A stretch of DNA of 64,000 bases from Bacteroidia bacterium. GTDB taxonomy: Bacteria > Bacteroidota > Bacteroidia > Flavobacteriales > Flavobacteriaceae. The notes under the pieces were generated by a model. That model ran no database searches. It was not told the origin of the DNA and saw only the letters and a program-made list of their open reading frames with translations. A program made the translations under genes and the position numbers. The stretch lies in NCBI GenBank assembly GCA_030427735.1, contig JAUIBP010000004.1, forward strand, positions 186,001-250,000. The letters run 5' to 3'. This document shows positions 15,252 through 38,800 of this stretch, piece after piece. Every line of letters starts with the position of its first letter. Position 1 is the first letter of the stretch.

Positions 15252-17288
15252 CTATTTAGGGAATTTTGCTAAATTCTCTAAAGCGTTTACCATGGCAACT
15301 TCAACATCTACGTGGTCTTGTTTTAAAATGTTAAGACTTTCTGTAAATTGCTGTTTTGCAGTTTTAGAAATCGTTTTCTGATCTAAAACATCTAATAGTG
15401 TTTTAGAAACTACCGATAAGTTTTTAGATAATGGTTCTAAAGTGTTTAAAGTCGGATTTTTGTCTAAAGCCGAAAAGGCTTCGTATTGTGTATTCCAGGT
15501 GGTTAAGTATTTTTTTATTTCAGTTTTGGTTTTAGTAGTTGGTGCGGCGGTATAATTGGCCACCAATCTATTAAAAGCTACTGCATCTGGCGCATCTGCC
15601 ACACAGGCATCTGCAAAAAGCGTGAAAGGTGAGTATGTTTGGTACTCAATACCGTCTTTGTTTCGGGCATAAATCTTAAGCGGTTCGCAAACCTTTTGAA
15701 GCGTAATTAGCGATGAAATATCCTGATTATTACTCATACTTCTTAAAATAACGTCTCGGTTTTTTATATGCGTAACCCCTAATTCTTCTAACCTGAAGCT
15801 TATTGGTTGTATGCGTTTTAGCATGTTGTTTACATCGTTAATAGTTTTAGGCGACCATAAACGTTCTGCTATGGCAATGGTTCTTGGCCAAATTCTAGAA
15901 TCTATTGTTAAACTCGTAGTAAGCTCGCTCCACATGGTAGCTTCGCCTCCTAAAATTCTTGCGGTTTCTTCTTCGCTTAATGTAACATTGCCTATTGGTT
16001 CGGTTAAATAATGTTTTTCGATAGACTCCATTCTGTCGATGTAAAACCCATTCGATAAAATGGTGTTGTAACCTTTTTGGGCGGCTTCAATTAAGGTTCC
16101 GCCTTTAGGTAAACCTTCGTTTTCTCCACGCCAAGAGTGTATTACTGCTGTGGTAGGCATGGTTGGTGTTAAGATCTCATCCCAGCCAACTAATTTTTTA
16201 TCTAATTTATGAAGGATTTTTTCAATTTTTATATTGAAATAGGTTTGTAAATCGTGATTGGTTTTAAGGTTATGAGCAGCCTTAAACTTTTGAATGTCTT
16301 TGTTTTCATCCCAGTGCTTTCCTTCGTTTTCATCTCCACCAATATGAAAATAGTCGTCTGGAAAAAGTGGTGTGATTTCTGTGAAAAGTTGTTCTAAAAA
16401 CACATAAGTATCTTCGTTGGTAGGATCTAAAGTAGGATCGAACACCCCCGAGTTGCGTTCAATACTATATTCGTATCCTGGTTTGCTTCCTAAATTAGGA
16501 AAGGCAGTTAAAATAGCCGATGCATGTCCGGGAACATCTATTTCTGGTATTACGCGAATTCCTAAAGTATTGGCATAAGCTACCACATCTTGTATTTGCT
16601 CTTGGGTGTAAAATAAGCCATCCGAAGCCAAATCGGTAAGCTCTGGGAAGGTTTTAGATTGAATTCTAAAGCCTTGATCGTCTACTAAATGCCAATGAAA
16701 TACATTCATTTTAACAGCGGCCATGGCCTCTAAATTACGCTTAATAACGTGTACAGGATGAAAATGTCTAGACACATCTATCATTAATCCGCGCCAAACA
16801 AATCTAGGCTCATCGGTAATAGAAACACCAGGGATATAGTATGTTGTAGCCGTGTTGCTTATTAATTGTAATAGGGTTTCTAAACCTCTTACTATTCCTA
16901 CATCTGTACTGGCATTTAAATGTATGTTATTGTTAGTTACGGTTAGTTTGTAAGCCTCGTCGGTTTTAATGTTTAATGTGCTTACAGTAGTATAAGTAAG
17001 AATAATACTAGCGTCTTTACGGTTGTTTATAGTGCTAGGAAAGCCTTCTTTTAAGAACAATCCTGTACGACCCGATAAGCGTCTTAAAAATTTTGTTGCC
17101 GCAGTAGTAACACGATTAGACTTTGGGCCATCTATAGCAATGCTTAAGTCTGGAGTAAGCGTGAATTGTTGCTCTTGTGCGGATATTGTTTTTGGCCAAG
17201 GCATTAAGTTGAAGGTCTCCTGCAATGGCATTTGAGACCAACAACTATATGCAACTAAGCTAAAAATGAATATGAAAAATCGTTTCAT
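15252..17288 (-). CDS. GH20 beta-N-acetylhexosaminidase
   Basis: The 678-residue protein has a signal peptide (ends near CWSQ), a GH20 N-terminal domain (about 25-155) and the GH20 TIM barrel (about 158-505). The catalytic pair is Asp319-Glu320 in HIGGDE, and the barrel start DVSRHFHPVHVIKRNLEAMA is typical. The enzyme releases terminal GlcNAc or GalNAc from glycans through substrate-assisted catalysis, here most likely in the periplasm. The C-terminal 170 residues are helical and without a recognised domain. It is the last gene of the SusC-SusD-NagB/PIG-L operon, 3 bp after its neighbour, which points to GlcNAc-containing oligosaccharides as substrate. Confidence 0.92.
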   Translation of the reverse strand: MKRFFIFIFSLVAYSCWSQMPLQETFNLMPWPKTISAQEQQFTLTPDLSIAIDGPKSNRVTTAATKFLRRLSGRTGLFLKEGFPSTINNRKDASIILTYTTVSTLNIKTDEAYKLTVTNNNIHLNASTDVGIVRGLETLLQLISNTATTYYIPGVSITDEPRFVWRGLMIDVSRHFHPVHVIKRNLEAMAAVKMNVFHWHLVDDQGFRIQSKTFPELTDLASDGLFYTQEQIQDVVAYANTLGIRVIPEIDVPGHASAILTAFPNLGSKPGYEYSIERNSGVFDPTLDPTNEDTYVFLEQLFTEITPLFPDDYFHIGGDENEGKHWDENKDIQKFKAAHNLKTNHDLQTYFNIKIEKILHKLDKKLVGWDEILTPTMPTTAVIHSWRGENEGLPKGGTLIEAAQKGYNTILSNGFYIDRMESIEKHYLTEPIGNVTLSEEETARILGGEATMWSELTTSLTIDSRIWPRTIAIAERLWSPKTINDVNNMLKRIQPISFRLEELGVTHIKNRDVILRSMSNNQDISSLITLQKVCEPLKIYARNKDGIEYQTYSPFTLFADACVADAPDAVAFNRLVANYTAAPTTKTKTEIKKYLTTWNTQYEAFSALDKNPTLNTLEPLSKNLSVVSKTLLDVLDQKTISKTAKQQFTESLNILKQDHVDVEVAMVNALENLAKFPK

Positions 17289-17291
17289 CTA

Positions 17292-19220
17292 TTAAAAGTG
17301 ATAGCGTTTAAAGGCTTCGATAGCAGCATAATCTGCTAGGCCTAAGTCGTTGTATTTTTTTGCTGTTAAGCGATTTCTGTCTTCGGCACGCACCCAAAAT
17401 TCGCGCGAGTCGTCGCCTTGAAACATAACCCCATCTTTTTGAGATTGGTGATAAAAGATGGCATGGCGTTTTTTAAGTACCTGATCCGGGCTCATAGGCA
17501 CGGCCATTTCGATTTCGTAAGATTCCCATTCGTGCCAAGCACCACGGTATAACCATACCCAACAATCGTTCATGTAAGATTTTGGTTTTAGCACTTCTAA
17601 AGCTGTAAAGAGTGCATCTAAACAGACTTTATGTGTGCCGTGAGGGTCGGCTAAATCGCCAGCAGCATAAATTTGATGCGGTTTAACATTATCTATTAAA
17701 CTACACATAATATCTATGTCGTCTTGGGTTAAGCTTCCCTTTTTAATGGTTCCGGTTTCGTAAAAAGGCAGGTTTAAAAAATGAACATTGTCATCTTTTA
17801 AGCCCATGTATCGCGTTGCGGCTAACGATTCGCTTCGTCTTATAAATCCTTTTAGTTGTCTTACTTCTAAAGAGTCGATGTCCTTATCTGTTTTTGATTG
17901 CAGAAAGTCAATAATATTTTGAGCTTCAGTAGATTTTGGGTTTAATTTTAATGTGATTTCTGCAAATTTTAAGGCTTCTTCATCTGATACGGCAATGTTA
18001 CCAGAGGTTTGGTATGCAATATGTACTTCGTGACCTTGCTCGACCAATCTGTCGAAGGTACCTCCCATAGATATCACATCGTCGTCTGGATGCGGACTAA
18101 AAATGATAACGCGTTTCTTGGCAGGTGTTGCACGTTCTGGACGGTGTAAGTCGTCTGCATTCGGTTTTCCTCCTGGCCAACCTGTAATGGTGTGCTGTAG
18201 TTTGTTAAACATTTTTATGTTTAAGTCGTAAGCTGTGCCTTCTTCGGTTAAAAGTCCAGACATGCCATTATCGTTATAATCTTTGTCTGTAAGTTTTAAA
18301 ATAGGTTTGTTTAGTAATTCGCTTAACCAAACCACGGCTTTAATTTTTAAGTCGTCTGTCCAATAGCAAGACGTTACCAACCAAGGTGTTTTAACTCGAG
18401 TTAATTCAGACGAAGCTTCGCTATCGATAACAAAAGTAGTATTATCGTGGTCTTGCAAATAAGTTGCAGGAACATTAGCGGTCATGTCGCCTTCTATGGC
18501 TTGTTTTAAAATTTTGGCTTTGTTTAAGCCCCAACCTAATAATACAATGCGTTTAGCACTTTTTACAGTGCCAATACCCATGGTTATTGCTTTTCTAGGT
18601 ACGTTGTCTATGCCTAAAAACGCAGGAGCAGCATCTACGCGGGTTAGGTGGTCTAAGGTTATGCTTCGGGTGCCAGAGTTTAAATGCGAACCAGGCTCGT
18701 TAAACCCAATGTGCCCTGTACGCCCAATACCCAATAATTGAAAATCTAAGCCGCCATACGATTTAATTTTCATTTCGTAATCTATACAATATTGGTATAA
18801 ATCGTCTGTACTAACCATACCATTAGGTATGTTAATGTTTTCTGGCAGTATGTCTACATGATTAAAAAGATGTTCGTGCATGAAATAAAAATAACTTTGG
18901 ATGTTATCTTTACTCATTGGGTAATACTCGTCTAAGTTAAAGGTTACTACGTTAGAAAAACTTAAACCTTCTTCTTTATGCATTCTAACCAGTTCTTCGT
19001 ATACTTTTATTGGTGAAGAACCTGTTGCTAAACCAAGTACACAGGGTTTATTTTCTTTTTCTTTTTGTATGATTAAAGCTGCTATTTCTTGGGCAACTAT
19101 AATTGATGCTTCGTTTGAAGAGTCGAAAATTACATTGTGTATTTTCTCGAAACGGGTTTCTTCAAACTTTCCAGCCTCCTTGTAGGCTATACTTTTAAAA
19201 TCAGTACTATCTACTTTCAT
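17292..19220 (-). CDS. nagB: Glucosamine-6-phosphate deaminase fused to a PIG-L/LmbE deacetylase-like domain
   Basis: The 642-residue protein joins two domains. Residues 25-275 are NagB, with phosphate-loop ATGSSP (65-70), DEY (97-99) and GHIGFNEPG (169-177), the residues that bind and deaminate glucosamine-6-phosphate to fructose-6-phosphate. Residues 368-642 are a PIG-L/LmbE domain with PHPDDD (376-381) and DPHGTHK (525-531), the zinc-binding motifs of GlcNAc deacetylases. Both sets look intact. The long form is common in this phylum and usually annotated as NagB only. No separate NagA lies in the locus, so the second domain may supply the deacetylation step; this is inference. No signal peptide, hence cytosolic. 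Confidence 0.92.
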   Translation of the reverse strand: MKVDSTDFKSIAYKEAGKFEETRFEKIHNVIFDSSNEASIIVAQEIAALIIQKEKENKPCVLGLATGSSPIKVYEELVRMHKEEGLSFSNVVTFNLDEYYPMSKDNIQSYFYFMHEHLFNHVDILPENINIPNGMVSTDDLYQYCIDYEMKIKSYGGLDFQLLGIGRTGHIGFNEPGSHLNSGTRSITLDHLTRVDAAPAFLGIDNVPRKAITMGIGTVKSAKRIVLLGWGLNKAKILKQAIEGDMTANVPATYLQDHDNTTFVIDSEASSELTRVKTPWLVTSCYWTDDLKIKAVVWLSELLNKPILKLTDKDYNDNGMSGLLTEEGTAYDLNIKMFNKLQHTITGWPGGKPNADDLHRPERATPAKKRVIIFSPHPDDDVISMGGTFDRLVEQGHEVHIAYQTSGNIAVSDEEALKFAEITLKLNPKSTEAQNIIDFLQSKTDKDIDSLEVRQLKGFIRRSESLAATRYMGLKDDNVHFLNLPFYETGTIKKGSLTQDDIDIMCSLIDNVKPHQIYAAGDLADPHGTHKVCLDALFTALEVLKPKSYMNDCWVWLYRGAWHEWESYEIEMAVPMSPDQVLKKRHAIFYHQSQKDGVMFQGDDSREFWVRAEDRNRLTAKKYNDLGLADYAAIEAFKRYHF

Positions 19221-19317
19221 TTTATTATCTTTTGATAAAGCAAACGGGAATGTGTTTTTCCCGTTTACTTTGTGAACTAATCAAATACTCGCTTGGTTTA
19301 AACTAACTACTATTCTA

Positions 19318-20910
19318 TTAGAAATTTGGTAATCCAGTATCCCACCAAAGTCTAGTACCACCAGTATCTGGCCCTTTTAACATGCCAACTGCAGCTTCTA
19401 CATTAGCACCATTGGTGTTTTTTTCGTTATCTACAAAATTGATTCTGCGTACTTGTATATTGGTATCTATAGCGCCACCACTATTGTTTACTACCACAGG
19501 AAATACTCTTGGGTAGCCAGTACGTCTAAACTCGCTCCAGGCCTCTTGTCCGTCTGGGAACATCGCAATCCATTTTTGGGTAATAATTTGCTCTAATTGT
19601 TCTTCTCTTGAGCCAGCTTCGTTGTAAGCTATTTTTACGTCGCTAGGGTAAGTGTAATTGTTTGTTGGGTTTAGCGCATCAACAAAATCGTTAGGCGTAC
19701 TGGTGTTATCGGCTAAATAGTTGTCTACACCACCAGCTCCAAATTGTGCAAAAGAGGCACGAACACCGGCTTCGTAATTAGTCTTAGCATCTCCAGCTCC
19801 AGCCCAACCGCGTAAGGCAGCTTCGGCTTTTAAGAAATGAACTTCGGCAGCTGTCATCCAAATTTTATTTGTTCCGTCAACAGCTTCTCCGATAAGCGAG
19901 TGGCTGCCGTATTCGGTTTTAGCTTCAATAGCAATACCCATACGTACACCTTTATAATCGCCTAAATTAGCATCGGCAGGGGCGGTAAAGAATTTAGAAA
20001 TTCTAGAGTCGTTAAAGCCTTTAAGAATCGATTCCATTTCTGCACTCATTACTACATCTCCCCAAACACGGCTAATGGTTTGGATAGGATGAACAAAGCC
20101 ACCCATGTCTATTAACATATTTTGTGCTTCCATTAGGCCAGCATTGCTAGATAAAGCTTTTTCGCCTTCGGTTTGTGCTAGCGTAGGGTTTACTTTAGAT
20201 ATGCGTATGGCTAAGCGTAAACGTAGTGAGTTTGCAAAGGTTCTCCAGGCAGCAATATCTCCACCAAGATTAGATTGGTCGAAAGCAGTAAACTGAGCAT
20301 CGTCTGTAAAAGATTCCAATCCGTTAATGGCTTCATCTAAATCGGCGAAAAAAGCTTGGTAAGCTATTTCTTGCGAATCGTATTCGCCAGTAGTATCGTA
20401 ATCGTTGTATTTTGAGTAACGGATTGGTCCAAATACATCGGAAACACGATGCATGGCCATTACTTTAATGATATTGGCCAGATATACGAATTTAACTCCG
20501 CTTTCGTCGCCAGAAAGTTCTACTTGTTGTACTATTTCTCGGGCGTATGGCATGACACCATTTCCATCATTAGCATCGTAAGCATCGCTCCAAATAAAAC
20601 CATTCCAGCCGTTAACTAGGGCATAGGTCTGGTTGTTAATATTACCAGCAAATGGTGTTGGAGCTGTCATGTATCCAGAAAACACATCGGCATTTAGGTT
20701 TTGCTGTAATTGGTAGTTCCAAGCTGGTTCTACACGAATTACATTAGAAAATAAAGGCGAAAATCTAGAGCCAATATGGTTGTTTTGTTGTGTTAAGCTT
20801 TCTTGTGAAATGCCGTAGGGATTGGTGTTGATGTCCTCGAAATCTCCTGTACAGTTTGTTAAGCTTATGGCTATTGCGGAAGCCATTGTATATTTAAGTA
20901 TATGTTTCAT
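19318..20910 (-). CDS. SusD/RagB-family nutrient-binding outer-membrane lipoprotein
   Basis: The 530-residue lipoprotein has a signal peptide with lipobox ending at Cys20 (SLTNC) and the N-terminal FEDINTNPYGI motif shared by many SusD-like proteins. It forms the surface lid that captures glycans for its SusC partner, which precedes it by 5 bp on the same strand. It belongs to the SusD/RagB group with helical TPR-like repeats. The downstream NagB-PIG-L and GH20 genes suggest GlcNAc-containing oligosaccharides as ligand. Confidence 0.92.
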   Translation of the reverse strand: MKHILKYTMASAIAISLTNCTGDFEDINTNPYGISQESLTQQNNHIGSRFSPLFSNVIRVEPAWNYQLQQNLNADVFSGYMTAPTPFAGNINNQTYALVNGWNGFIWSDAYDANDGNGVMPYAREIVQQVELSGDESGVKFVYLANIIKVMAMHRVSDVFGPIRYSKYNDYDTTGEYDSQEIAYQAFFADLDEAINGLESFTDDAQFTAFDQSNLGGDIAAWRTFANSLRLRLAIRISKVNPTLAQTEGEKALSSNAGLMEAQNMLIDMGGFVHPIQTISRVWGDVVMSAEMESILKGFNDSRISKFFTAPADANLGDYKGVRMGIAIEAKTEYGSHSLIGEAVDGTNKIWMTAAEVHFLKAEAALRGWAGAGDAKTNYEAGVRASFAQFGAGGVDNYLADNTSTPNDFVDALNPTNNYTYPSDVKIAYNEAGSREEQLEQIITQKWIAMFPDGQEAWSEFRRTGYPRVFPVVVNNSGGAIDTNIQVRRINFVDNEKNTNGANVEAAVGMLKGPDTGGTRLWWDTGLPNF

Positions 20911-20915
20911 TTTTC

Positions 20916-23900
20916 TTAGAAATTTACGTTAATGTTTAACCCGATGCTTCTTGTAGAAGGCTGGTTATAAATGTCTACCCCTTGTAAGCCCATTCCTGTA
21001 CTAGCAGCAATGTTTGGATCGAATGGCGCATCTTTGTAGAAAAAGAACAAGTTATTGGCGATTAATGAAAAGTTGATGTTGTCTATAAAATCGCTGTGCT
21101 CTAATAATAATCTGTAGCCTACAGAAAGTTCTCTTAAACTAACATTGGTAGCGTCGTAAACATATTCGCCTAGCATACCATCTCTACCACCAACGGCATT
21201 GTAGTATTCTTGTGCACTTAATTGTGAAGCAACACCGCTTTCGTTAACTACATTTATCATACCGCCGTTTCTGTTACGCGCGTCTGCCGAAGCTTGCGAT
21301 ACACCGTATTTATCGTTTACGGCTTCGGTAACACTCATTACGTCGCCACCAAATTTACCATCGATAAGGAAGTTTACATGAAAATCGCCTATCTCAAAAC
21401 TGTTATTCCAACCTAAGGTAAAGTCTGGTTGCGCATGTGCTACGGTTTCGAAATCGGTAGACATTAAAGTTCCAGACGAGTTGATTACTGGAGTACCGTT
21501 CTCGTCGCGAATTACAGATCTTGCTTTTATGCTACCAAAATCTTCGCCTTCAATTAAAGAATATTCATAACCGTTTACACCGCGTGCAGTAACAATAGCC
21601 TCGCCATCTTGTAACGATGGGTGTACAGCAACAACTTTATTGTTGTTTTCAGCAAAGTTAATAGAGGTATCCCAGATAAATTTGTCTGCTACCACAGGTT
21701 TAGCGTTAACAACCAATTCGATACCTTTACTTGATATTTCTCCAGCGTTTACAATGTTTTGAGCATATCCGTTAGGGTTTGGCTCTGCTTGGATGTAGAA
21801 AATCTGATTATGTGTTCTGGTGTCGTAGTACGTGAAATCGAAGCCTAAGCGGTTACCAAAGAAGCGCCATTCTGTACCTATTTCAAATCCTTTTTGGCGT
21901 TCTGGCTCTAAAGTTTCACCCTCTAAAGGCGCAAAAGGAGCTGTACCAATACCTGTGTTGGTATTGTTAATAGTGTTTAACGGAATTGTCGCGTAAACAG
22001 GTATGTCTTTACCTACCTCGGCGTAAGACCCTCTAAGTTTAGCAAACGAAATACCATCGCCCATATCGAACATTTCTGTTAATACTGCTGTTAAACCTGC
22101 AGACGGGTAGAAGAACGAATCGGAATCTGTGTACACTAAGGTAGACGACCAGTCGTTACGACCTGTAACATCTAAAAATAACATGTCTTTGAAACCAAAG
22201 TTAGCCGAACCAAAAACAGATTGTACCTCTCTGTTAGAAACCGCCTGTCTGATGTTATTAGTTGTTGCAAAGTTGGCTATATTGAAAATGTTCGGATAAT
22301 TTAAACCTACGCCATCACGACCAGAATCTAAATACACTTGATCGCCTAATTTGTATTTTGTTAAGCTGGTACCTAAAAGTCCAGAGAAGGTAAAGTCTTC
22401 AGAAAAATCTTTATTGTACGATGCGATTAAGTCGATGTACTGTTGCGTGTTTTCAGTCTTTTCTAAAATATAGCGTCCGTTATCTCCAGAGTTTACAGGG
22501 TCGGTTCCTGCATATTGTCTTTTGTCGAAGGTGAAAAAGGTCTTGTCGAAACTTCCTCTAGATTGTAAAGAAAATGCTTCAGTAATTTGATATTTTACCG
22601 ACACGTTAGCTAGCACGCGTTGTGCGATGTCTTTACTAGGACTTCTGTTAATTAACCAATATGGGTTTTGTTGTATGTTTTCGTCGAAAGACGTTGCGTA
22701 CTGATCCATTTGGTTTAATGCTGTATTGAAATACTCGTATTTATTTTTGTATGTATCTCGGCTTATTCCTACAGGATGTAAGTATACTCCAGTTAACGGG
22801 TTAGAGTATAAACCGTTGGTCGGACGGTTCCAGATGCGTTGGTCGGAAAGGTTAATATTTGCCGATACATCTATCTTATCGTCTAAGAATTTTGCTGTTT
22901 CTCTTAACGTTATATTGTTTCTGGTTAAGCGGTTACCCGGAATAACACCTTCGCCTATAGTATTTGCATACGAAAAATACGTTTGAGCTTTGGCATTACC
23001 AGCTGTTAAGGATAACGCATTAATAGAGGTGTATCCTGTTTGGAAAAAATCTTCGGCATCGTTGCTTAAGCCATCAGTTTTTGCTCCCCAAGATTTAGGA
23101 TCTGCAACACGTCCGTTTTCTGCAATAGGTTGTCCTACCGAAGCACTTTGGTATTCCGATTGTAATTTAGGTAAAGACATAACATTGTCTACAGTAAAGC
23201 TAGAATTAAAGTTTACCGATAATGCACCTTCTTTTCCTTTTTTAGTAGTAATTAAAATAACCCCGTTAGCCCCTTGGCTACCATATAGTGCCGAAGCCGA
23301 TGCTCCTTTTAAAACCGTCATGCTTTCGATATCGTCTGGGTTAATTAACGACATGGCATCTCCACCATCGCGGTTACCAGTTTGGCTACCAAAAATATCG
23401 GTTCCTGGCTCGTTACCGTTAGACCCATTACCACTGTTAAGCATAGGTATACCATCTATAACATATAGTGGGTCGTTGTTGGTGGTAGAGGTATTTCCCC
23501 TTAAAACAACTTTAGTAGCACCACCTAAACCAGATGAACTTCTGGAAATGGTTAAACCAGCAGATTTACCAGATAAGCTATTAATAGGGTTGGTTTGTTT
23601 TACGCGAGTTAATTCGTCGCCACCTACTTCTTGAGCCGAGTAGGTTAAAGCTTTTTTCTCTTTTTGAATCCCTAAGGCGGTAACTACAACTTCGTTAAGT
23701 TGTTCGCTATCTTCACCTAGTTCAACATTGTAAACATCAGAGGCGCCAACTGTTACCTCTACAGTGGTCATTCCGAGGTAAGAGAATTTTAAAACGTCGC
23801 CAGTGCTGGCTGTAATGGTATAATTACCATCAAAATCTGTTAATGTTCCGGTAGATGTACCTTTTACAAGTACATTTGCTCCTGCAACGGGCATGCCATC

Positions 23901-24008
23901 TACAAGAGAAGTAACAGTACCTTTAATGTCTTTCTCTTGAGCAAACAGGAGTTGCATGCTAAAGAATAAGAAAGAACATAAGAAAGTCATTCTTAAATAG
24001 TGTTTCAT
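20916..24008 (-). CDS. SusC/RagA-family TonB-linked outer-membrane transporter
   Basis: The 1030-residue transporter has a signal peptide, a carboxypeptidase-D-like domain (about 25-105, with KGTVTSLVDGMPVAGANV), the TonB-linked motif LNEVVVTALG (about 104-113), a plug domain with PLYVIDGIPM and GSQGANGVILITTKKG, and a long barrel ending in an aromatic. These are all SusC hallmarks. With the SusD-like lipoprotein it imports oligosaccharides into the periplasm. It is the first gene of a four-gene operon and faces a LytS/LytTR two-component pair across 238 bp, the likely regulator. Confidence 0.95.
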   Translation of the reverse strand: MKHYLRMTFLCSFLFFSMQLLFAQEKDIKGTVTSLVDGMPVAGANVLVKGTSTGTLTDFDGNYTITASTGDVLKFSYLGMTTVEVTVGASDVYNVELGEDSEQLNEVVVTALGIQKEKKALTYSAQEVGGDELTRVKQTNPINSLSGKSAGLTISRSSSGLGGATKVVLRGNTSTTNNDPLYVIDGIPMLNSGNGSNGNEPGTDIFGSQTGNRDGGDAMSLINPDDIESMTVLKGASASALYGSQGANGVILITTKKGKEGALSVNFNSSFTVDNVMSLPKLQSEYQSASVGQPIAENGRVADPKSWGAKTDGLSNDAEDFFQTGYTSINALSLTAGNAKAQTYFSYANTIGEGVIPGNRLTRNNITLRETAKFLDDKIDVSANINLSDQRIWNRPTNGLYSNPLTGVYLHPVGISRDTYKNKYEYFNTALNQMDQYATSFDENIQQNPYWLINRSPSKDIAQRVLANVSVKYQITEAFSLQSRGSFDKTFFTFDKRQYAGTDPVNSGDNGRYILEKTENTQQYIDLIASYNKDFSEDFTFSGLLGTSLTKYKLGDQVYLDSGRDGVGLNYPNIFNIANFATTNNIRQAVSNREVQSVFGSANFGFKDMLFLDVTGRNDWSSTLVYTDSDSFFYPSAGLTAVLTEMFDMGDGISFAKLRGSYAEVGKDIPVYATIPLNTINNTNTGIGTAPFAPLEGETLEPERQKGFEIGTEWRFFGNRLGFDFTYYDTRTHNQIFYIQAEPNPNGYAQNIVNAGEISSKGIELVVNAKPVVADKFIWDTSINFAENNNKVVAVHPSLQDGEAIVTARGVNGYEYSLIEGEDFGSIKARSVIRDENGTPVINSSGTLMSTDFETVAHAQPDFTLGWNNSFEIGDFHVNFLIDGKFGGDVMSVTEAVNDKYGVSQASADARNRNGGMINVVNESGVASQLSAQEYYNAVGGRDGMLGEYVYDATNVSLRELSVGYRLLLEHSDFIDNINFSLIANNLFFFYKDAPFDPNIAASTGMGLQGVDIYNQPSTRSIGLNINVNF

Positions 24009-24246
24009 AATTTGATTGTTTAGTCTCGTTATTTACATCAAGTTTATTCATATTTATATTTCTTTTAAAATAAAATATCTAAACGACACGATTTAACATA
24101 TAAATAACATTTAGGTTTCGATGAACGTTTTTTGCAAAATAAACAAAGGGTAATTTAATTGTTAATTAATTATTATATTATTAAAATTGCTTAATCATTC
24201 TTTGCGTTTTGCTTAAGAATATCGTGTTTAATTAAATATTTTTCCA
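24009..24246. other. Divergent control region between the susC-like and lytS-like genes
   Basis: This is the longest non-coding gap in the window and is very AT-rich. ATCGTGT occurs on the plus strand at 24221-24227 and, as its reverse complement ACACGAT, at 24086-24092; each copy reads toward its nearer gene. No full TAnnTTTG element and no clear pair of LytTR consensus repeats was found. Confidence 0.4.
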
Positions 24247-25287
24247 TTGTTTAAATTTACTTTAAAACCCTCTATATCAATTAAATATCATGTCTTATTT
24301 TGGCTTGGGTATTTTTTATTTAACGTAGTTAGATGGGGAAGCTATTTTCACGACTATTGGTATTCGCTAAAATCGAATCTGATAGAATTTCCTATTCATA
24401 TAATAGTAGTGTATATAAATGTATATTATTTAATACCTAAATTAATTTTACGAAAACGTTATAGAACTTATTTGTTTTCATTAATATTGATGCTTGCTTT
24501 GGTGTATTTGGTTAGAACGGGTTTAAACTACTTGTTAGTAACCAAAGCCATTTGGCCAGAAGCCGAAAGTGCAGGTACATTTTTACAATTAAACCATATT
24601 ATTGCTGTTGTTTTAGGCGAATTGTATGTAATTACATTTGTGTCGGCAATAAAATTATTAATAGATTGGAGTATCGAAAAACGACGCAACGAAGAGTTGG
24701 CTAAGCTTCAATTAAGTACAGAATTAAAATATTTGAGAACCCAAATTCAGCCACATTTCTTCTTTAATACGTTAAACAATTTATACGCTTTAACCTTAAC
24801 AAAGTCTGATAATGCCCCACAATTGGTAATTAAAATATCCGATATGATGCAGTATGTGCTTTACGAGGTTAACAGCTCGAAAGCCGATTTATTAGACGAG
24901 ATTAACCATATAAACAATTTTATAGATATTGCGCGTTTACGTTTTAACGAAAGTATAGAATTCGAAATGGATATTACTGGAGATATTGAAGATGTAGAAG
25001 TACCACCTTTATTGTTTTTAACCTTTATAGAAAACTGTTTTAAACACGGATTAAAAGACAGCGATAAGGTAAAGGTGTGTATGAGTTTTGAAATTACTAA
25101 TAAAGATTATTTAGAGTTTAAACTTATAAACACATTTAATCCAGATTCTAACATTACCAACGAGCAGGGTATAGGCATTGCCAATACCAAACGCCGATTA
25201 AATTTATTGTTTTCGAGCAACTATGTTTTGGAAACCAGCATAAAAGATAATACGTATAATTTGTTTTTAAAAATCCCCATTAGATGA
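24247..25287 (+). CDS. LytS/YehU-type sensor histidine kinase
   Basis: The 346-residue membrane kinase has four predicted membrane segments (about 13-28, 48-66, 74-98, 115-138), then a His_kinase domain with the phospho-acceptor His170 in IQPHFFFNTLNNLY, and a degenerate HATPase domain with N263 in IENCFKHG. The start is TTG at 24247; I see no in-frame ATG that would keep the first membrane helix. The next gene, a LytTR response regulator, overlaps by 4 bp. Position opposite the susC-like gene suggests that it senses a sugar signal for the GlcNAc locus, which is unusual because such loci mostly use hybrid two-component, ECF or SusR-type control. Confidence 0.9.
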   Translation: MFKFTLKPSISIKYHVLFWLGYFLFNVVRWGSYFHDYWYSLKSNLIEFPIHIIVVYINVYYLIPKLILRKRYRTYLFSLILMLALVYLVRTGLNYLLVTKAIWPEAESAGTFLQLNHIIAVVLGELYVITFVSAIKLLIDWSIEKRRNEELAKLQLSTELKYLRTQIQPHFFFNTLNNLYALTLTKSDNAPQLVIKISDMMQYVLYEVNSSKADLLDEINHINNFIDIARLRFNESIEFEMDITGDIEDVEVPPLLFLTFIENCFKHGLKDSDKVKVCMSFEITNKDYLEFKLINTFNPDSNITNEQGIGIANTKRRLNLLFSSNYVLETSIKDNTYNLFLKIPIR

Positions 25288-26003
25288 AAATTAAATGCGT
25301 TATAATCGACGATGAGTCTTTAGCTATTAAGGTTATAGAAGATCATTTAAAAAATTTCGACCATATAGAAGTGGTCGCTACTTTTACGAATCCACTTAAA
25401 GCGTATCCTATTTTAGAGCAGGAAAAAATAGATGTTATTTTTTTAGATATAAACATGCCGCAACTCAGTGGCTTTGCCTTTGTAGAAAACCTAAGTTATA
25501 AACCATTAATTGTAATTACCACAGCATATAGAGAGTATGCCGTAAAAAGTTTCGAGCTTAATGTTTTAGATTATCTTGTAAAACCCATACCGTTTAATAG
25601 GTTTTTAAAAACCATTAACAAGGTGTACCAACAAGTGTATATTAACAATGCCACAGCCGATTTAAATTTGCAACAAGAACCTCATATTTTTTTAAAGGTT
25701 AGCAAAAAACTAATAAAGGTTAATTTAAACGATATTTTATACATAGAAAGCCTTAAAGATTATATAAAAGTAATTACCACCTTGGGCGATTATGTAGTGC
25801 ATAAATCGTTAACAGCAATTTCTGAAGAGTTGCCACAATCTAATTTTTTACGTGTACACCGGTCGTACACCATTTCCATAAATAAAATAAAATCTGTAGA
25901 AGGTAATACCATAGAAATTGCCAACAGAAAAATACCAATAGGGCGGAATTATGTTAAAGTAACGCGCGAGCGTATTTTTAATAACGAAGACCTGCAAAAC
26001 TAA
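25284..26003 (+). CDS. LytTR-family response regulator
   Basis: The 239-residue protein has a receiver domain with acidic pair DD (9-10), phospho-acceptor Asp55 in VIFLDINMP and Lys in LVKPIPF, followed by a LytTR DNA-binding domain (about 133-235, with LYIESLKDYIKV and FLRVHRSYTISI). It overlaps the LytS-type kinase gene by 4 bp (ATGA), so the two form a pair. LytTR proteins bind pairs of short direct repeats; none with clear consensus was found in the adjacent control region. Targets are probably the divergent sus-type operon, the downstream transporter genes, or both. Confidence 0.92.
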   Translation: MKIKCVIIDDESLAIKVIEDHLKNFDHIEVVATFTNPLKAYPILEQEKIDVIFLDINMPQLSGFAFVENLSYKPLIVITTAYREYAVKSFELNVLDYLVKPIPFNRFLKTINKVYQQVYINNATADLNLQQEPHIFLKVSKKLIKVNLNDILYIESLKDYIKVITTLGDYVVHKSLTAISEELPQSNFLRVHRSYTISINKIKSVEGNTIEIANRKIPIGRNYVKVTRERIFNNEDLQN

Positions 26004-26042: not shown

Positions 26043-27386
26043 ATGTCTAAAACTGTTGAAGCTTACGCGGCACAGAAAAGCAATTCGCTTGTGCCTATAT
26101 GTATTATTGCTGGATTATTTTTCATTTTCGGATTTGTAACATGGATTAACGGAGCGCTTATTCCTTTTATGAAAACCATTAACGAACTTACCGATGCCCA
26201 GTCGTATTTGGTAGCTTCGGCATCGTATATTTCTTTTGTGGTTATGGCACTTCCAGCCTCTTATATTATAGGCAAAGTGGGATATAAAAAAGGCATGTCG
26301 TTAGGTTTAGCGATTATGGGAGTGGGGGCTTTGGTGTTTATTCCAGCAGCCGAAGCTAGAACATATACTTTGTTTTTAACGGGAATATTTATTCAAGGTT
26401 TAGGTATGACGTTGTTGCAAACAGCATCCAATCCGTATATCACAATTTTAGGGCCTATGAAAAGCGCCGCAAAGCGTATTGCAATTATGGGAATAGCAAA
26501 CAAAGTGGCGGGTGCTTTAGGGTCTTTAATTTTCGGCGCTATTTTGTTATCCGGAATAGATGGTATTCAGGAACAATTAGCGACGGTATCTTCAGAAGAA
26601 AAAACAGAATTGCTTAATAACATGGCCGATAGTGTGGTTATGCCTTACATTATTATGGCTGTGGTGTTATTTATTCTAGCTATTTTAATTACAAAAGCAC
26701 CGCTGCCACATGTAGAAGCAGAAGCTATTGAAGAAGATGTTACAGATGGTAATATACAAACCAAAAAAACAAGCATTTTTCAGTTTCCGCATTTATGGTT
26801 AGGGGTGTTAACTTTATTCCTGTATGTTGGGGTAGAAGTAATTGCGGGCGATACCATAATATCTTATGGCTTATCGTTAGGAATTCCTGGAGAAGAAGCA
26901 AAATCGTTTACGTTAATGACCTTAATGGCTATGGTGGCTACTTATGCTTTGGGAGTATTTTTAATACCAAAATATGTTAGTCAGGAGCTGGCCTTAAAAG
27001 CAAGTGCTATTTTAGGTGTTTTATTCTCTGTATGTATTTTATTTACTAACGGATTTACCTCGGTGCTTTTTGTTGCGGCATTAGGAATTTCTAATGCTTT
27101 GGTATGGCCCGCTATTTGGCCATTAGCTTTAAATGGTATGGGGAAATTTACTAAAACGGCTTCGGCCTTATTGGTTATGGCTATTTCTGGTGGCGCGATT
27201 ATTCCACCACTTTATGGCGCATTAGTCGATTCAAAGAAAGAAGAATTGTTAGTTCAAGGTGTAGAGCAGGCCACTGCCACAGCAACATCGGCAACCTCTG
27301 GGTACTGGATTTTAATACCGTGTTATGCGTTCATATTATTTTATGCCGTTTATGGTCATAAAATAGGATTAAGAAAATCGAAATAA
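26043..27386 (+). CDS. Sugar MFS transporter of the FucP/NagP type
   Basis: The 447-residue protein has about twelve membrane segments and the FucP-like opening GLFFIFGFVTWINGALIPFM, with YFSF-like spacing and TASNPYITILG near residue 130. FucP-type permeases are sugar:proton symporters; those in GlcNAc loci are called NagP and bring free GlcNAc across the inner membrane. That substrate is inferred from the neighbours (GH20, NagB-PIG-L, NagX-like). Because the import does not phosphorylate, a GlcNAc kinase must lie elsewhere in the genome. The next gene follows after 6 bp. Confidence 0.88.
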   Translation: MSKTVEAYAAQKSNSLVPICIIAGLFFIFGFVTWINGALIPFMKTINELTDAQSYLVASASYISFVVMALPASYIIGKVGYKKGMSLGLAIMGVGALVFIPAAEARTYTLFLTGIFIQGLGMTLLQTASNPYITILGPMKSAAKRIAIMGIANKVAGALGSLIFGAILLSGIDGIQEQLATVSSEEKTELLNNMADSVVMPYIIMAVVLFILAILITKAPLPHVEAEAIEEDVTDGNIQTKKTSIFQFPHLWLGVLTLFLYVGVEVIAGDTIISYGLSLGIPGEEAKSFTLMTLMAMVATYALGVFLIPKYVSQELALKASAILGVLFSVCILFTNGFTSVLFVAALGISNALVWPAIWPLALNGMGKFTKTASALLVMAISGGAIIPPLYGALVDSKKEELLVQGVEQATATATSATSGYWILIPCYAFILFYAVYGHKIGLRKSK

Positions 27387-27392
27387 TAGCTT

Positions 27393-28484
27393 ATGGCGCA
27401 ACGTATTGAATCTGTTGACTTGCTTCGTGGCATTACCATTGCTGCTATGATTTTAGTTAATACACCAGGCGATTGGGGGAGTGTATATGCTCCTTTACTC
27501 CATGCCGATTGGCACGGCTTAACGCCTACAGATTTAATCTTTCCGTTCTTTTTGTTTATTGTGGGCATCTCTATTTATTACGCTTATAAAAACAAGACGA
27601 AATCGAACGCGGTGTACAAAAAAATAGCGATAAGAAGTTTGAAGCTAATAGCCTTGGGTTTATTCTTGAATGCATTTACACCTGTGCCTCCCTTTGTGGA
27701 ATCTTTAGAAACAGTACGTCTTCCTGGTGTACTGCAACGTATAGGTATTGTGTTTTTTGTAACGGCTTGGTTATATCTTAATTTACATTGGCGTTATTTG
27801 GTTGTTGTCGTAATTTTTATTCTAATTGCTTATTGGTTGTTCTTAGGTTTTGTTCCGTTTTCAGACGGTACAATGCCAACGTTTGATAGAGCACCTAACA
27901 ATTGGTCAAATTTTATAGATTTACAGATTTTAGGAAAACACATGTGGCAACCCGATTACGATCCCGAGGGCATAATGGGAACGTTTCCTGCTATTGCCAC
28001 TTGTATTTTAGGGGTGCTAATTGGCAAACTTTTAGATATGGATACCGTTAATAAAACAATTAAACTTTTAGCTGTTGGTTTTAGTTTTACGGTTTTAGGT
28101 TATTTGTGGCATCAAATTTATCCAATAAATAAAGCACTTTGGAGTAGTAGTTTTGTGTTGGTAACAGCAGGTATTGGTACTGTAATTTTAGGTGTTATTT
28201 ATTACATTGTAGATGTAAAACAAAAGCATTTTGGAGCAATCTTTAAATATGCTGGTATGAATGCCATAACGGTTTATTTTCTGTCTAGTTTAATCAGTAA
28301 AATATTCTATACCATTCCTGTAGGTAGTGGTAATTCTATCCACGGTTGGCTGTATCAAACCTGCTTTGTGTTCAACGGTTTAGCATCTAAACTGTCATCG
28401 TTACTATATGCCTTAAGTGTTGTTTTATGCTACTTAATTTTGGGATATTATTTATACAGAAAACGAATCTTCATTAAAGTTTAA
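27393..28484 (+). CDS. NagX-like membrane acyltransferase (DUF5009/HGSNAT-like)
   Basis: The 363-residue protein has about ten hydrophobic segments and the family opening RIESVDLLRGITIAAMILVN followed by DLIFPFFLFIVGIS. It belongs to the DUF5009 group related to heparan-alpha-glucosaminide N-acetyltransferase and known in bacterial GlcNAc loci as NagX. The proposed role is transmembrane acetylation of a glucosamine residue; this is family knowledge, not proven for this protein. It is 6 bp after the sugar permease and is the last gene of the plus-strand half of the locus. Confidence 0.85.
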   Translation: MAQRIESVDLLRGITIAAMILVNTPGDWGSVYAPLLHADWHGLTPTDLIFPFFLFIVGISIYYAYKNKTKSNAVYKKIAIRSLKLIALGLFLNAFTPVPPFVESLETVRLPGVLQRIGIVFFVTAWLYLNLHWRYLVVVVIFILIAYWLFLGFVPFSDGTMPTFDRAPNNWSNFIDLQILGKHMWQPDYDPEGIMGTFPAIATCILGVLIGKLLDMDTVNKTIKLLAVGFSFTVLGYLWHQIYPINKALWSSSFVLVTAGIGTVILGVIYYIVDVKQKHFGAIFKYAGMNAITVYFLSSLISKIFYTIPVGSGNSIHGWLYQTCFVFNGLASKLSSLLYALSVVLCYLILGYYLYRKRIFIKV

Positions 28485-36952: not shown

Positions 36953-38800
36953 TTACTCTACAGTAACCGATTTTGCTAAGTTACGTGGCTGATCTACATT
37001 TTTGCCCAACATTACTGCAATATGGTACGATAATAATTGTAGCGGAATGGTAGTTAAAAGCGGCGACAGCGCTTCTAAAGTTTCAGGAACTTCTATAACG
37101 TGGTCTGCTAAGTCTTTTACCTGAGTATCTCCTTCTGTAACTACGCCAATAATTTTTCCTTTTCTAGATTTTATTTCCTGAATATTACTTACTACTTTTT
37201 CGTAATGCCCTTTTTTGGTAGCAATTACAATTACAGGCATTTGCTCGTCTATTAAAGCAATAGGGCCGTGCTTCATTTCTGCTGCTGGGTAGCCTTCTGC
37301 GTGTATGTAAGAGATTTCTTTTAATTTTAAAGCACCTTCTAAAGCTACAGGGAAATTATATCCTCTACCTAAATACAAACAGTTTTTGGCTGTTTTATAA
37401 ATGTCGGCTACGGTTTTTACATAGCTGTCCGATTCTAATGCCTTTTTAACTTTATCGGGAATAAGTTCCAATTCGATTAAATGATGACGGAAATCGGAGC
37501 TAGAAATAGTGCCTTTAGCTCTAGCCAAACGCAATGCGATAAGCGATAGTACCGTTATTTGTGTTGTGAACGCTTTTGTTGAAGCAACACCAATTTCTGG
37601 GCCAGCATGTGTATAAGCTCCTGCATGGGTTTCTCTGGCGATAGAAGAACCTACAACATTACAAACGCCAAATACAAAAGCACCTTTAGATTTTGCTAAT
37701 TTTATAGCGGCCAAAGTATCGGCAGTTTCGCCAGATTGCGAGATGGCAATAACAATATCTTTTTCTGTAATAACCGGATTTCTATATCTGAATTCCGAAG
37801 CATATTCTACTTCTACAGGAATTCTTGCCAAATCTTCAAAAATATATTCCGAAACCAGACCTGCATGCCAAGATGTACCGCAGGCAACAATTATAATGCG
37901 TTCCGCATTTAAGAATTTCTTCATATTGTCTTCTACGCCAGACATTTTTATAATGGCTTCGTTAGACAATAAACGACCTCTAAAGGTGTCTAGAATAGCA
38001 CTTGGTTGCTCGTAAATTTCTTTTAACATAAAATGTTCGTAGCCGCCTTTTTCTATTTGTTCAAGATTTAATTGTAAGGCTTGAACGTAAGGGTCTACCA
38101 TAGAGTCGTCTTTAATTTTTCTAATTTTTACGTCTCTACCTAATCTTATAATTGCTAATTCTTCGTCTTCTAAATAAATGGCATTTTTAGTAAATTCTAA
38201 AAATGGCGAAGCGTCGCTAGCTATAAAAAATTCGTCTTTACCAACACCAATTGCTAAGGGGCTTCCTAAGCGTGCTGCAATAATCTCGTCGGGTTTATTT
38301 TTATCGAAAACCGCAATGGCATAAGCACCGATGACTTGATTTAAAGCCACCTGAACAGCTTTACCAAGTTTCAAGTTTTCTTTGCTCATTACATCTTCAA
38401 TAAGGTTTACCAGAACTTCGGTATCGGTATCCGATTTAAAGGTGTAACCTCTTTCTTTTAGAGCTTTTTTTAAGGACTCGTAGTTTTCGATAATACCGTT
38501 GTGGATAATCACTAGATTCTCAGAATTGGAATAGTGCGGATGTGAGTTAACATCGTTAGGGACTCCATGGGTTGCCCATCGGGTATGACCTAAAGCAATA
38601 TGGCCATCTGTTGTTAATTCTCTTTTTACTTTATCTTCTAGGTCGACAACTTTGCCTTTGGTTTTGGCAACTTTTAGATGTTCGCCATCAAAAAGTGCAA
38701 TGCCAGCACTGTCGTAACCACGATATTCTAGGCGTTTAAGACCGTTTATTACAATTGGGTAGGCTTCTCTGTAGCCTATATATCCTACAATTCCACACAT
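36953..38800 (-). CDS. glmS: Glutamine-fructose-6-phosphate aminotransferase (isomerizing)
   Basis: The 615-residue enzyme has the class II glutamine amidotransferase domain with nucleophile Cys2 (MCGIVGYIGYREA) and RGYDSAGIA, and two SIS domains with CGTSWHAG, SQSGETADT and the C-terminal NLAKSVTVE. It makes glucosamine-6-phosphate for peptidoglycan and lipopolysaccharide, the reverse direction of the NagB reaction encoded about 18 kb away. It is the last gene of a GlgA-like, DUF4270, glmS operon, 6 bp after DUF4270. Confidence 0.98.
   Translation of the reverse strand: MCGIVGYIGYREAYPIVINGLKRLEYRGYDSAGIALFDGEHLKVAKTKGKVVDLEDKVKRELTTDGHIALGHTRWATHGVPNDVNSHPHYSNSENLVIIHNGIIENYESLKKALKERGYTFKSDTDTEVLVNLIEDVMSKENLKLGKAVQVALNQVIGAYAIAVFDKNKPDEIIAARLGSPLAIGVGKDEFFIASDASPFLEFTKNAIYLEDEELAIIRLGRDVKIRKIKDDSMVDPYVQALQLNLEQIEKGGYEHFMLKEIYEQPSAILDTFRGRLLSNEAIIKMSGVEDNMKKFLNAERIIIVACGTSWHAGLVSEYIFEDLARIPVEVEYASEFRYRNPVITEKDIVIAISQSGETADTLAAIKLAKSKGAFVFGVCNVVGSSIARETHAGAYTHAGPEIGVASTKAFTTQITVLSLIALRLARAKGTISSSDFRHHLIELELIPDKVKKALESDSYVKTVADIYKTAKNCLYLGRGYNFPVALEGALKLKEISYIHAEGYPAAEMKHGPIALIDEQMPVIVIATKKGHYEKVVSNIQEIKSRKGKIIGVVTEGDTQVKDLADHVIEVPETLEALSPLLTTIPLQLLSYHIAVMLGKNVDQPRNLAKSVTVE

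Follow-up and report, generated by a model that had tools for sequence, protein, structure and literature searches.

Gene content of the locus and architecture of the fusion

The window analysed here (the whole stretch of DNA, 64,000 nucleotides long) carries a gene whose product joins a NagB half to a PIG-L half, and which is found together with the following genes.

15252-17288, minus strand: GH20 beta-N-acetylhexosaminidase (PF00728, 314.3 bits), 3 bp downstream of the fusion
17292-19220, minus strand: NagB-PIG-L fusion, 642 aa, ATG start (NF002557, 1059.6 bits, residues 10-641)
19318-20910, minus strand: SusD-like protein (PF12741, 592.1 bits)
20916-24008, minus strand: predicted SusC-like TonB-dependent transporter, so called for its position beside SusD and its sequence character
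24247-26003, plus strand: putative LytS-like/LytR-like two-component pair, two ORFs; similar genes stand beside related loci
26043-27386, plus strand: NagP-like MFS permease (NF046060, 415.7 bits, below the cut-off of 625)
27393-28484, plus strand: NagX-like homologue of transmembrane glucosamine N-acetyltransferase (NF046061, 187.3 bits, below the cut-off of 480)

The minus-strand genes run in the order SusC, SusD, fusion and GH20, with gaps of 97 bp between SusD and the fusion and 3 bp between the fusion and GH20, while the two-component pair and the NagP-like and NagX-like genes are divergent on the plus strand. The two-component genes are taken by us to be LytS-like and LytR-like from the character of their sequences. 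NagP and NagX were not adopted as firm names because both matches lie under the NCBIfam cut-offs; the NagX-like protein also matches PF07786 with 52 bits (cut-off 22). A promoter and terminator scan of 19200-24300 gave no excess over shuffled sequences (15 vs. a mean of 13.5, and 4 vs. 3.8). The original prediction described a locus with a hexosaminidase, an importer and a deaminase and without nagA, which agrees with the GH20, NagP-like (below cut-off) and fusion genes seen here; no nagA turned up among those locus genes that were examined. At a distance of about 18 kb from the fusion, a gene at 36953-38800 on the minus strand encodes glutamine amidotransferase and SIS domains (PF13522, PF01380), as in GlmS. 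GlmS makes glucosamine-6-phosphate, the compound which the fusion is proposed to destroy.

Translation of 17292-19220 contains no internal stop. Pfam recognizes PF01182 at residues 37-262 (71.4 bits, cut-off 27) and the PIG-L model PF02585 at residues 373-540 (63.7 bits, cut-off 28.2), and the match to NF002557/PRK02122, a family named glucosamine-6-phosphate deaminase-like protein, far exceeds the cut-off of 384 and spans profile positions 12-651 of 653. Because this model covers the whole protein end to end, the fusion belongs to a known, though uncharacterised, family. It is no sequencing accident, since besides this end-to-end match it recurs over the cut-off in relatives, the family sample having it in 101 of its 199 genomes and the phylum sample in 125 of 296. 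Open frames with apparent extra N-terminal domains in three relatives (G324, G371 and G285; 1099, 759 and 781 aa) were set aside, since they look like in-frame run-on before the true start.

As the original prediction supposed, annotation generally names the deaminase alone. Among the best 10 PLSDB matches, five records are called nagB, two are called glucosamine-6-phosphate deaminase and three are unannotated at that place, so that all seven annotated records name only the deaminase, even though NCBIfam models the whole fusion (NF002557). The NagA model TIGR00221 is absent from the 10 NCBIfam matches of the fusion (E <= 0.001). The fusion may be NagA-like in function, yet it is no NagA by family.

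Conservation and fold of the two halves

Both halves keep the catalytic motifs on which the original prediction was built, and these are located in the fusion as follows.

18381-19133, minus strand: NagB half, about residues 30-280 (PF01182; TIGR00502; Foldseek 2bkv)
18924-18938, minus strand: NLDEY motif, residues 95-99 (D97 in 92/93 and E98 in 93/93 homologues)
18690-18716, minus strand: GHIGFNEPG motif, residues 169-177 (H170 in 92/93 and E175 in 93/93)
18126-18380, minus strand: helical insert and conserved linker, about residues 281-365 (WPGGKPNADD..RPER)
17295-18125, minus strand: PIG-L/LmbE-like half, about residues 366-642 (PF02585; VIA-align Z 22.4 to BshB and 21.7 to diacetylchitobiose deacetylase)
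18078-18095, minus strand: PHPDDD, residues 376-381, with predicted metal ligands H377 and D380 and predicted general base D379, assigned from their LmbE counterparts
17628-17648, minus strand: DPHGTHK, residues 525-531, with H527 and the predicted metal ligand H530, from alignment to H110 and H113 of 2ixd

The NagB half scores 265.4 bits against TIGR00502 (cut-off 236.9) and carries D97, H170 and E175, which we take to be the conserved catalytic Asp, His and Glu of NagB. Its best likeness is PDB entry 2bkv, the title of which describes a monomeric deaminase.

The PIG-L half belongs to the PIG-L/LmbE-like proteins by its family match and by its His-Asp-His site with a neighbouring Asp base (H377, D379, D380 and H530). 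Conservation was counted in 93 distinct fusions longer than 580 aa for which a BLAST match to both halves was demanded, a set that fusions with one badly decayed half would escape. All seven positions of SPHPDDD, as well as D525, P526, H527, T529 and H530, are unchanged in 93 of 93. The set takes in fusions from nagA-bearing genomes, and H377, D379, D380, H527 and H530 are invariant there too. R606, R611 and R615, candidate phosphate-binding arginines, are invariant in all 38 aligned fusions.

A profile alignment to 2ixd, the LmbE protein of B. cereus, is a weak local match of 12.9 bits, which places R461 at Arg53, E488 at a conserved Asp, H527 at His110, H530 at His113 and P526 at Arg109, so that the substrate-binding Arg109 of BshB would be replaced by proline in the fusion. 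The roles of these LmbE residues were taken from the sections of a review used here (PMC4101496), in which the LmbE deacetylases have GlcNAc conjugates or diacetylchitobiose as substrates and none uses a sugar 6-phosphate, and in which substrates across LmbE enzymes are diverse.

The full-length AlphaFold model of the fusion has a pLDDT of 87.2 and that of the C-terminal half 87.5, and the latter adopts the LmbE fold, with Z of 18.6-22.4 to 22 LmbE-type entries and 9.0 for the next, unrelated row. GalB (5cgz), one of these LmbE-fold matches, is a hydratase, so the fold alone is no proof of deacetylation. The best-scoring solved relatives of the PIG-L half by sequence are diacetylchitobiose deacetylases, which also rank high by fold. 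Between the two halves, G347-K352 and R360-R363 of the linker are unchanged in 38 of 38 aligned fusions, while the block pLDDT of region 341-370 is only 53-77; many invariant positions together with low model confidence are what a lid or docking segment might show. Two 264-aa matches in one genome (G133) were considered as stand-alone PIG-L halves and rejected; they sit at contig ends and are therefore no evidence for a solo gene.

Occurrence of nagA, the fusion and their neighbours

The original prediction proposed a search of the whole genome for nagA, and the outcome is the one it expected: none was found in this 99.94% complete genome, the best six-frame match to TIGR00221 reaching 22 bits (cut-off 225.65). 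There are two such matches, both weak (22 and 19.9 bits) and in one ORF; searched as a protein, this ORF reaches 39.8 bits and fits many amidohydrolase models about equally well. Likewise, the fusion is the sole protein of the genome over the PF01182 cut-off of 27, the second match having 20.1 bits. Two further PIG-L proteins are encoded: BshB1, at 305 bits, and a large protein whose Mca-like match is weak (49.9 bits, cut-off 277). A role of the fusion as a bacillithiol deacetylase was discarded, because the genome owns this separate BshB1 (cut-off 182.5); the fusion itself scores 21.9 bits against the same equivalog model.

As for the remaining pathway, a single BadF-family kinase is encoded elsewhere in the genome and resembles the solved GlcNAc/MurNAc kinase chains 8oqk, 8ow7 and 8ow9 (E 1e-38 to 7e-44), while a ROK protein matches polyphosphate glucokinase. 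MurQ (387.9 bits) and AnmK (206.6 bits) are both present, and GlcNAc-6-phosphate should therefore form in this organism. No PF00704 (GH18) match was found across the whole genome (E <= 0.001), and for this reason the locus more likely targets GlcNAc-containing oligosaccharides than chitin itself.

In relatives, the surroundings of the fusion were compared in 40 chosen neighbourhoods, one per genome (L050-L089), of which 39 come from nagA-less genomes and only one (G142) from a genome with nagA; that nagA occurs in none of the 40 is thus partly due to selection. Nine contain GH20-SusC-LytR and nine a NagP-like gene; MurQ accompanied by AmpG or AnmK is seen in nine, and the other 13 show no such context. 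Neighbours were labelled by their best BLAST match among a few reference genes, in some cases with identities of 25-35% (26% for NagP in L071). A BadF kinase lies nearby in 6 of 40. Six of the nine NagP-like contexts (L056:5634-8973, L058, L060, L068, L075 and L078) also have an APH-family kinase and a nucleotidyltransferase near the permease and the fusion, which suggests a second GlcNAc route, for example via a sugar 1-phosphate to a nucleotide sugar.

The product of MurQ, found among the neighbours of the fusion in other genomes, is GlcNAc-6-phosphate. On a phylogeny of 137 fusions, those in the MurQ-type context fall into two separate clades, one of nine tips (support 0.945) and one of five (support 0.982), with L228 and L082 outside them. 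Since this context occurs in two separated groups, divergent fusions appear to fill one slot in a cluster that produces GlcNAc-6-phosphate. As proof of need, MurQ is weakened by its frequency, being over cut-off in 186 of 199 family genomes.

The distribution of nagA and the fusion was examined in a family sample of 199 genomes and in a phylum sample made up of 296 genomes that are at least 95% complete. In the family sample the fusion is over cut-off in 101 genomes and full-length nagA-like matches occur in 20 (at least 187 bits; 10 over cut-off), giving 20 genomes with both, 81 with the fusion only, 0 with nagA only and 98 with neither. The corresponding phylum numbers are 125 with the fusion and 52 with nagA (at least 168 bits; 44 over cut-off), or 30 with both, 95 with the fusion only, 22 with nagA only and 149 with neither. 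No simple anti-correlation of the two genes was seen; they are positively associated in the family sample (p 7e-7) as well as in the phylum sample (odds ratio 2.1, p 0.02), which might reflect a shared tie to sugar-using genomes. Among phylum genomes with NagB, nagA is found in 30 of 125 fusion holders vs. 21 of 41 whose only NagB is a stand-alone one, recognised by an NF002557 E-value from 1e-95 to 1e-30; the odds ratio is 0.30 (p 0.002, uncorrected for phylogeny). One of the remaining 130 genomes has nagA. Separately, 88 of the 98 fusion-less family genomes carry MurQ and have neither nagA nor the fusion, so MurQ alone does not call for the fusion.

Where nagA does occur in the family, it mostly lies near another NagB: 14 of 19 neighbourhoods fetched from the 20 genomes hold a stand-alone NagB-like paralogue, and two (L100 and L101) hold the fusion within the stretch. 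A set of nine loci (L100-L108) combines, in 9/9, a stand-alone NagB-like protein, an SSS-type symporter and a sub-cut-off NagA-like protein, with GH20 in 7/9, and possibly represents a galactosamine-type pathway. Among the matches listed, nagA is present in 2 of 80 fusion loci (up to 6 kb on each side). Outside the family sample, nagA directly precedes the fusion in L147 (G262), L187 (F. segetis) and L189 (F. limicola), where a second GlcNAc-6-phosphate deacetylase should be redundant. Each of these three loci also has a gene that, from its sequence character, we presume to be an AGE-type epimerase.

Proposed function and comparison with known systems

Judging from sequence, two successive reactions of amino-sugar breakdown are probably catalysed by this single protein. 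Our preferred reading, to which we give a probability of roughly 0.6, is that GlcNAc-6-phosphate loses its acetyl group in the PIG-L half and that the resulting sugar phosphate is deaminated in the NagB half. This substrate is favoured because adjacent steps would be fused, the metal site is conserved, nagA was not found, and the gene is placed where GlcNAc-6-phosphate is made. GH20 would free GlcNAc outside the cytoplasm, the NagP-like permease would bring it in, and the BadF-family kinase would phosphorylate it. The fusion, a presumably cytoplasmic bifunctional enzyme, would then remove acetate from GlcNAc-6-phosphate at its C-terminal LmbE-type metal site and convert glucosamine-6-phosphate into fructose-6-phosphate and ammonia at its N-terminal NagB site, and thus stand in for separate NagA and NagB. 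Deacetylation would precede deamination, possibly with channelling between the sites, and GlcNAc-6-phosphate made by MurQ in peptidoglycan recycling would be taken by the fusion as well.

Four observations are the main doubts about this role: in some operons nagA stands beside the fusion, the two genes are positively associated, 88 of 98 fusion-less family genomes have MurQ with neither enzyme, and the LmbE deacetylases of the review sections used have other kinds of substrate. The alignment of BshB's Arg109 with P526 also speaks against it. The strongest rival, in our view unlikely, is that the PIG-L half deacetylates unphosphorylated GlcNAc or a chitooligosaccharide, in the manner of archaeal diacetylchitobiose deacetylase, after which a kinase makes glucosamine-6-phosphate for the NagB half. 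Diacetylchitobiose deacetylases, as the best solved sequence relatives and high-ranking ones by fold, speak for it, as do the BadF-family kinases, which include glucosamine kinases, and it could account for the occasional coexistence with nagA. However, a kinase step between the two fused activities would make the fusion less useful, the MurQ clusters, in which the intermediate is already phosphorylated, would be left unexplained, and the reaction would presumably be opposed by the NagX-like acetyltransferase that this locus encodes.

Slightly less probable still is that the PIG-L half has a different N-acetylated substrate, a sugar phosphate or conjugate such as one from muropeptides or sialic acid catabolism, and that an unrecognised enzyme deacetylates GlcNAc-6-phosphate. 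Such an enzyme would fit the operons with nagA directly beside the fusion and the diversity of LmbE substrates in the review sections used (PMC4101496), and many MurQ-bearing relatives with neither nagA nor the fusion must already use another route; against this, no candidate was found in the genome, whose sole TIGR00221 matches are the weak ones in the amidohydrolase-like ORF, and its own BshB1 makes bacillithiol an unlikely target. That the PIG-L half is non-catalytic and merely stabilises or regulates the deaminase is very improbable, for although a partner domain might replace oligomer contacts in a NagB half nearest to the monomeric 2bkv, every predicted metal ligand and the base stay unchanged across 93 of 93 fusions, which would be needless in a purely structural domain.

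If GlcNAc-6-phosphate is the substrate, many nagA-less GlcNAc and peptidoglycan-recycling pathways of Flavobacteriaceae, which now seem incomplete, are complete, hundreds of genes or more (at least 588 relatives) gain a second reaction in their annotation, and a second, unrelated solution to GlcNAc-6-phosphate deacetylation exists. To the best of our knowledge, this would be the first PIG-L enzyme acting on a free sugar 6-phosphate. Extended to the phylum, it is about an even chance that PRK02122 proteins are bifunctional throughout, with an LmbE-type deacetylase that displaced NagA and hands glucosamine-6-phosphate to the deaminase, and that GlcNAc-uptake loci and peptidoglycan-recycling clusters acquired them in separate events.

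The chitin utilisation locus (ChiUL) of Flavobacterium johnsoniae resembles the present locus in overall gene arrangement and, in the portions of Larsbrink 2016 used here (PMC5127042), comprises GH20, NagB (Fjoh_4557), SusC/D-like pairs, a two-component system and a sugar transporter. In the same portions, deletion of the ChiUL nagB left growth on chitin unchanged, the protein could not be expressed in E. coli, chitinases are described, and three more nagB-like genes and a predicted NagA (Fjoh_3974) are reported. The present genome differs in that neither nagA nor a GH18 chitinase was found, so it does not have an F. johnsoniae-type locus with GH18. Strain CI04 of F. johnsoniae (L180) has a fusion alongside SusC, SusD and GH20, and Fjoh_4557 is therefore very probably a fusion too. 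The deletion without a chitin phenotype counts against a GlcNAc-6-phosphate role, with the other nagB-like genes and the NagA predicted there to be borne in mind. No mention of the second domain of the PRK02122 family was found in the open-access literature, as represented mostly by listings or the beginnings of abstracts, nor in the parts used of PMC5583593, PMC4324048, PMC13046382, PMC5127042, PMC4101496 and PMC10942906.

Among the closest known systems, NF002557/PRK02122 is identical to the fusion in architecture and domain content, but its name assigns no role to the C-terminal half. The NagB half resembles Bacillus subtilis NagB (2bkv; Foldseek TMt 0.97, 44% identity), which differs in being a 242-residue chain without the second domain. 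The PIG-L half shares its fold (Z 21-22) and the PHPDD motif with diacetylchitobiose deacetylase (3we7 and 8bgo), BshB (6p2t) and 2ixd, and, by the weak alignment, an Arg and two His with the last. Unlike the fusion, these proteins have no NagB fused to them, are only about 20% identical and have named substrates that are not sugar 6-phosphates. Finally, NagA (TIGR00221) shares the reaction proposed for the fusion, whereas its protein family, of the amidohydrolase type, is unrelated.
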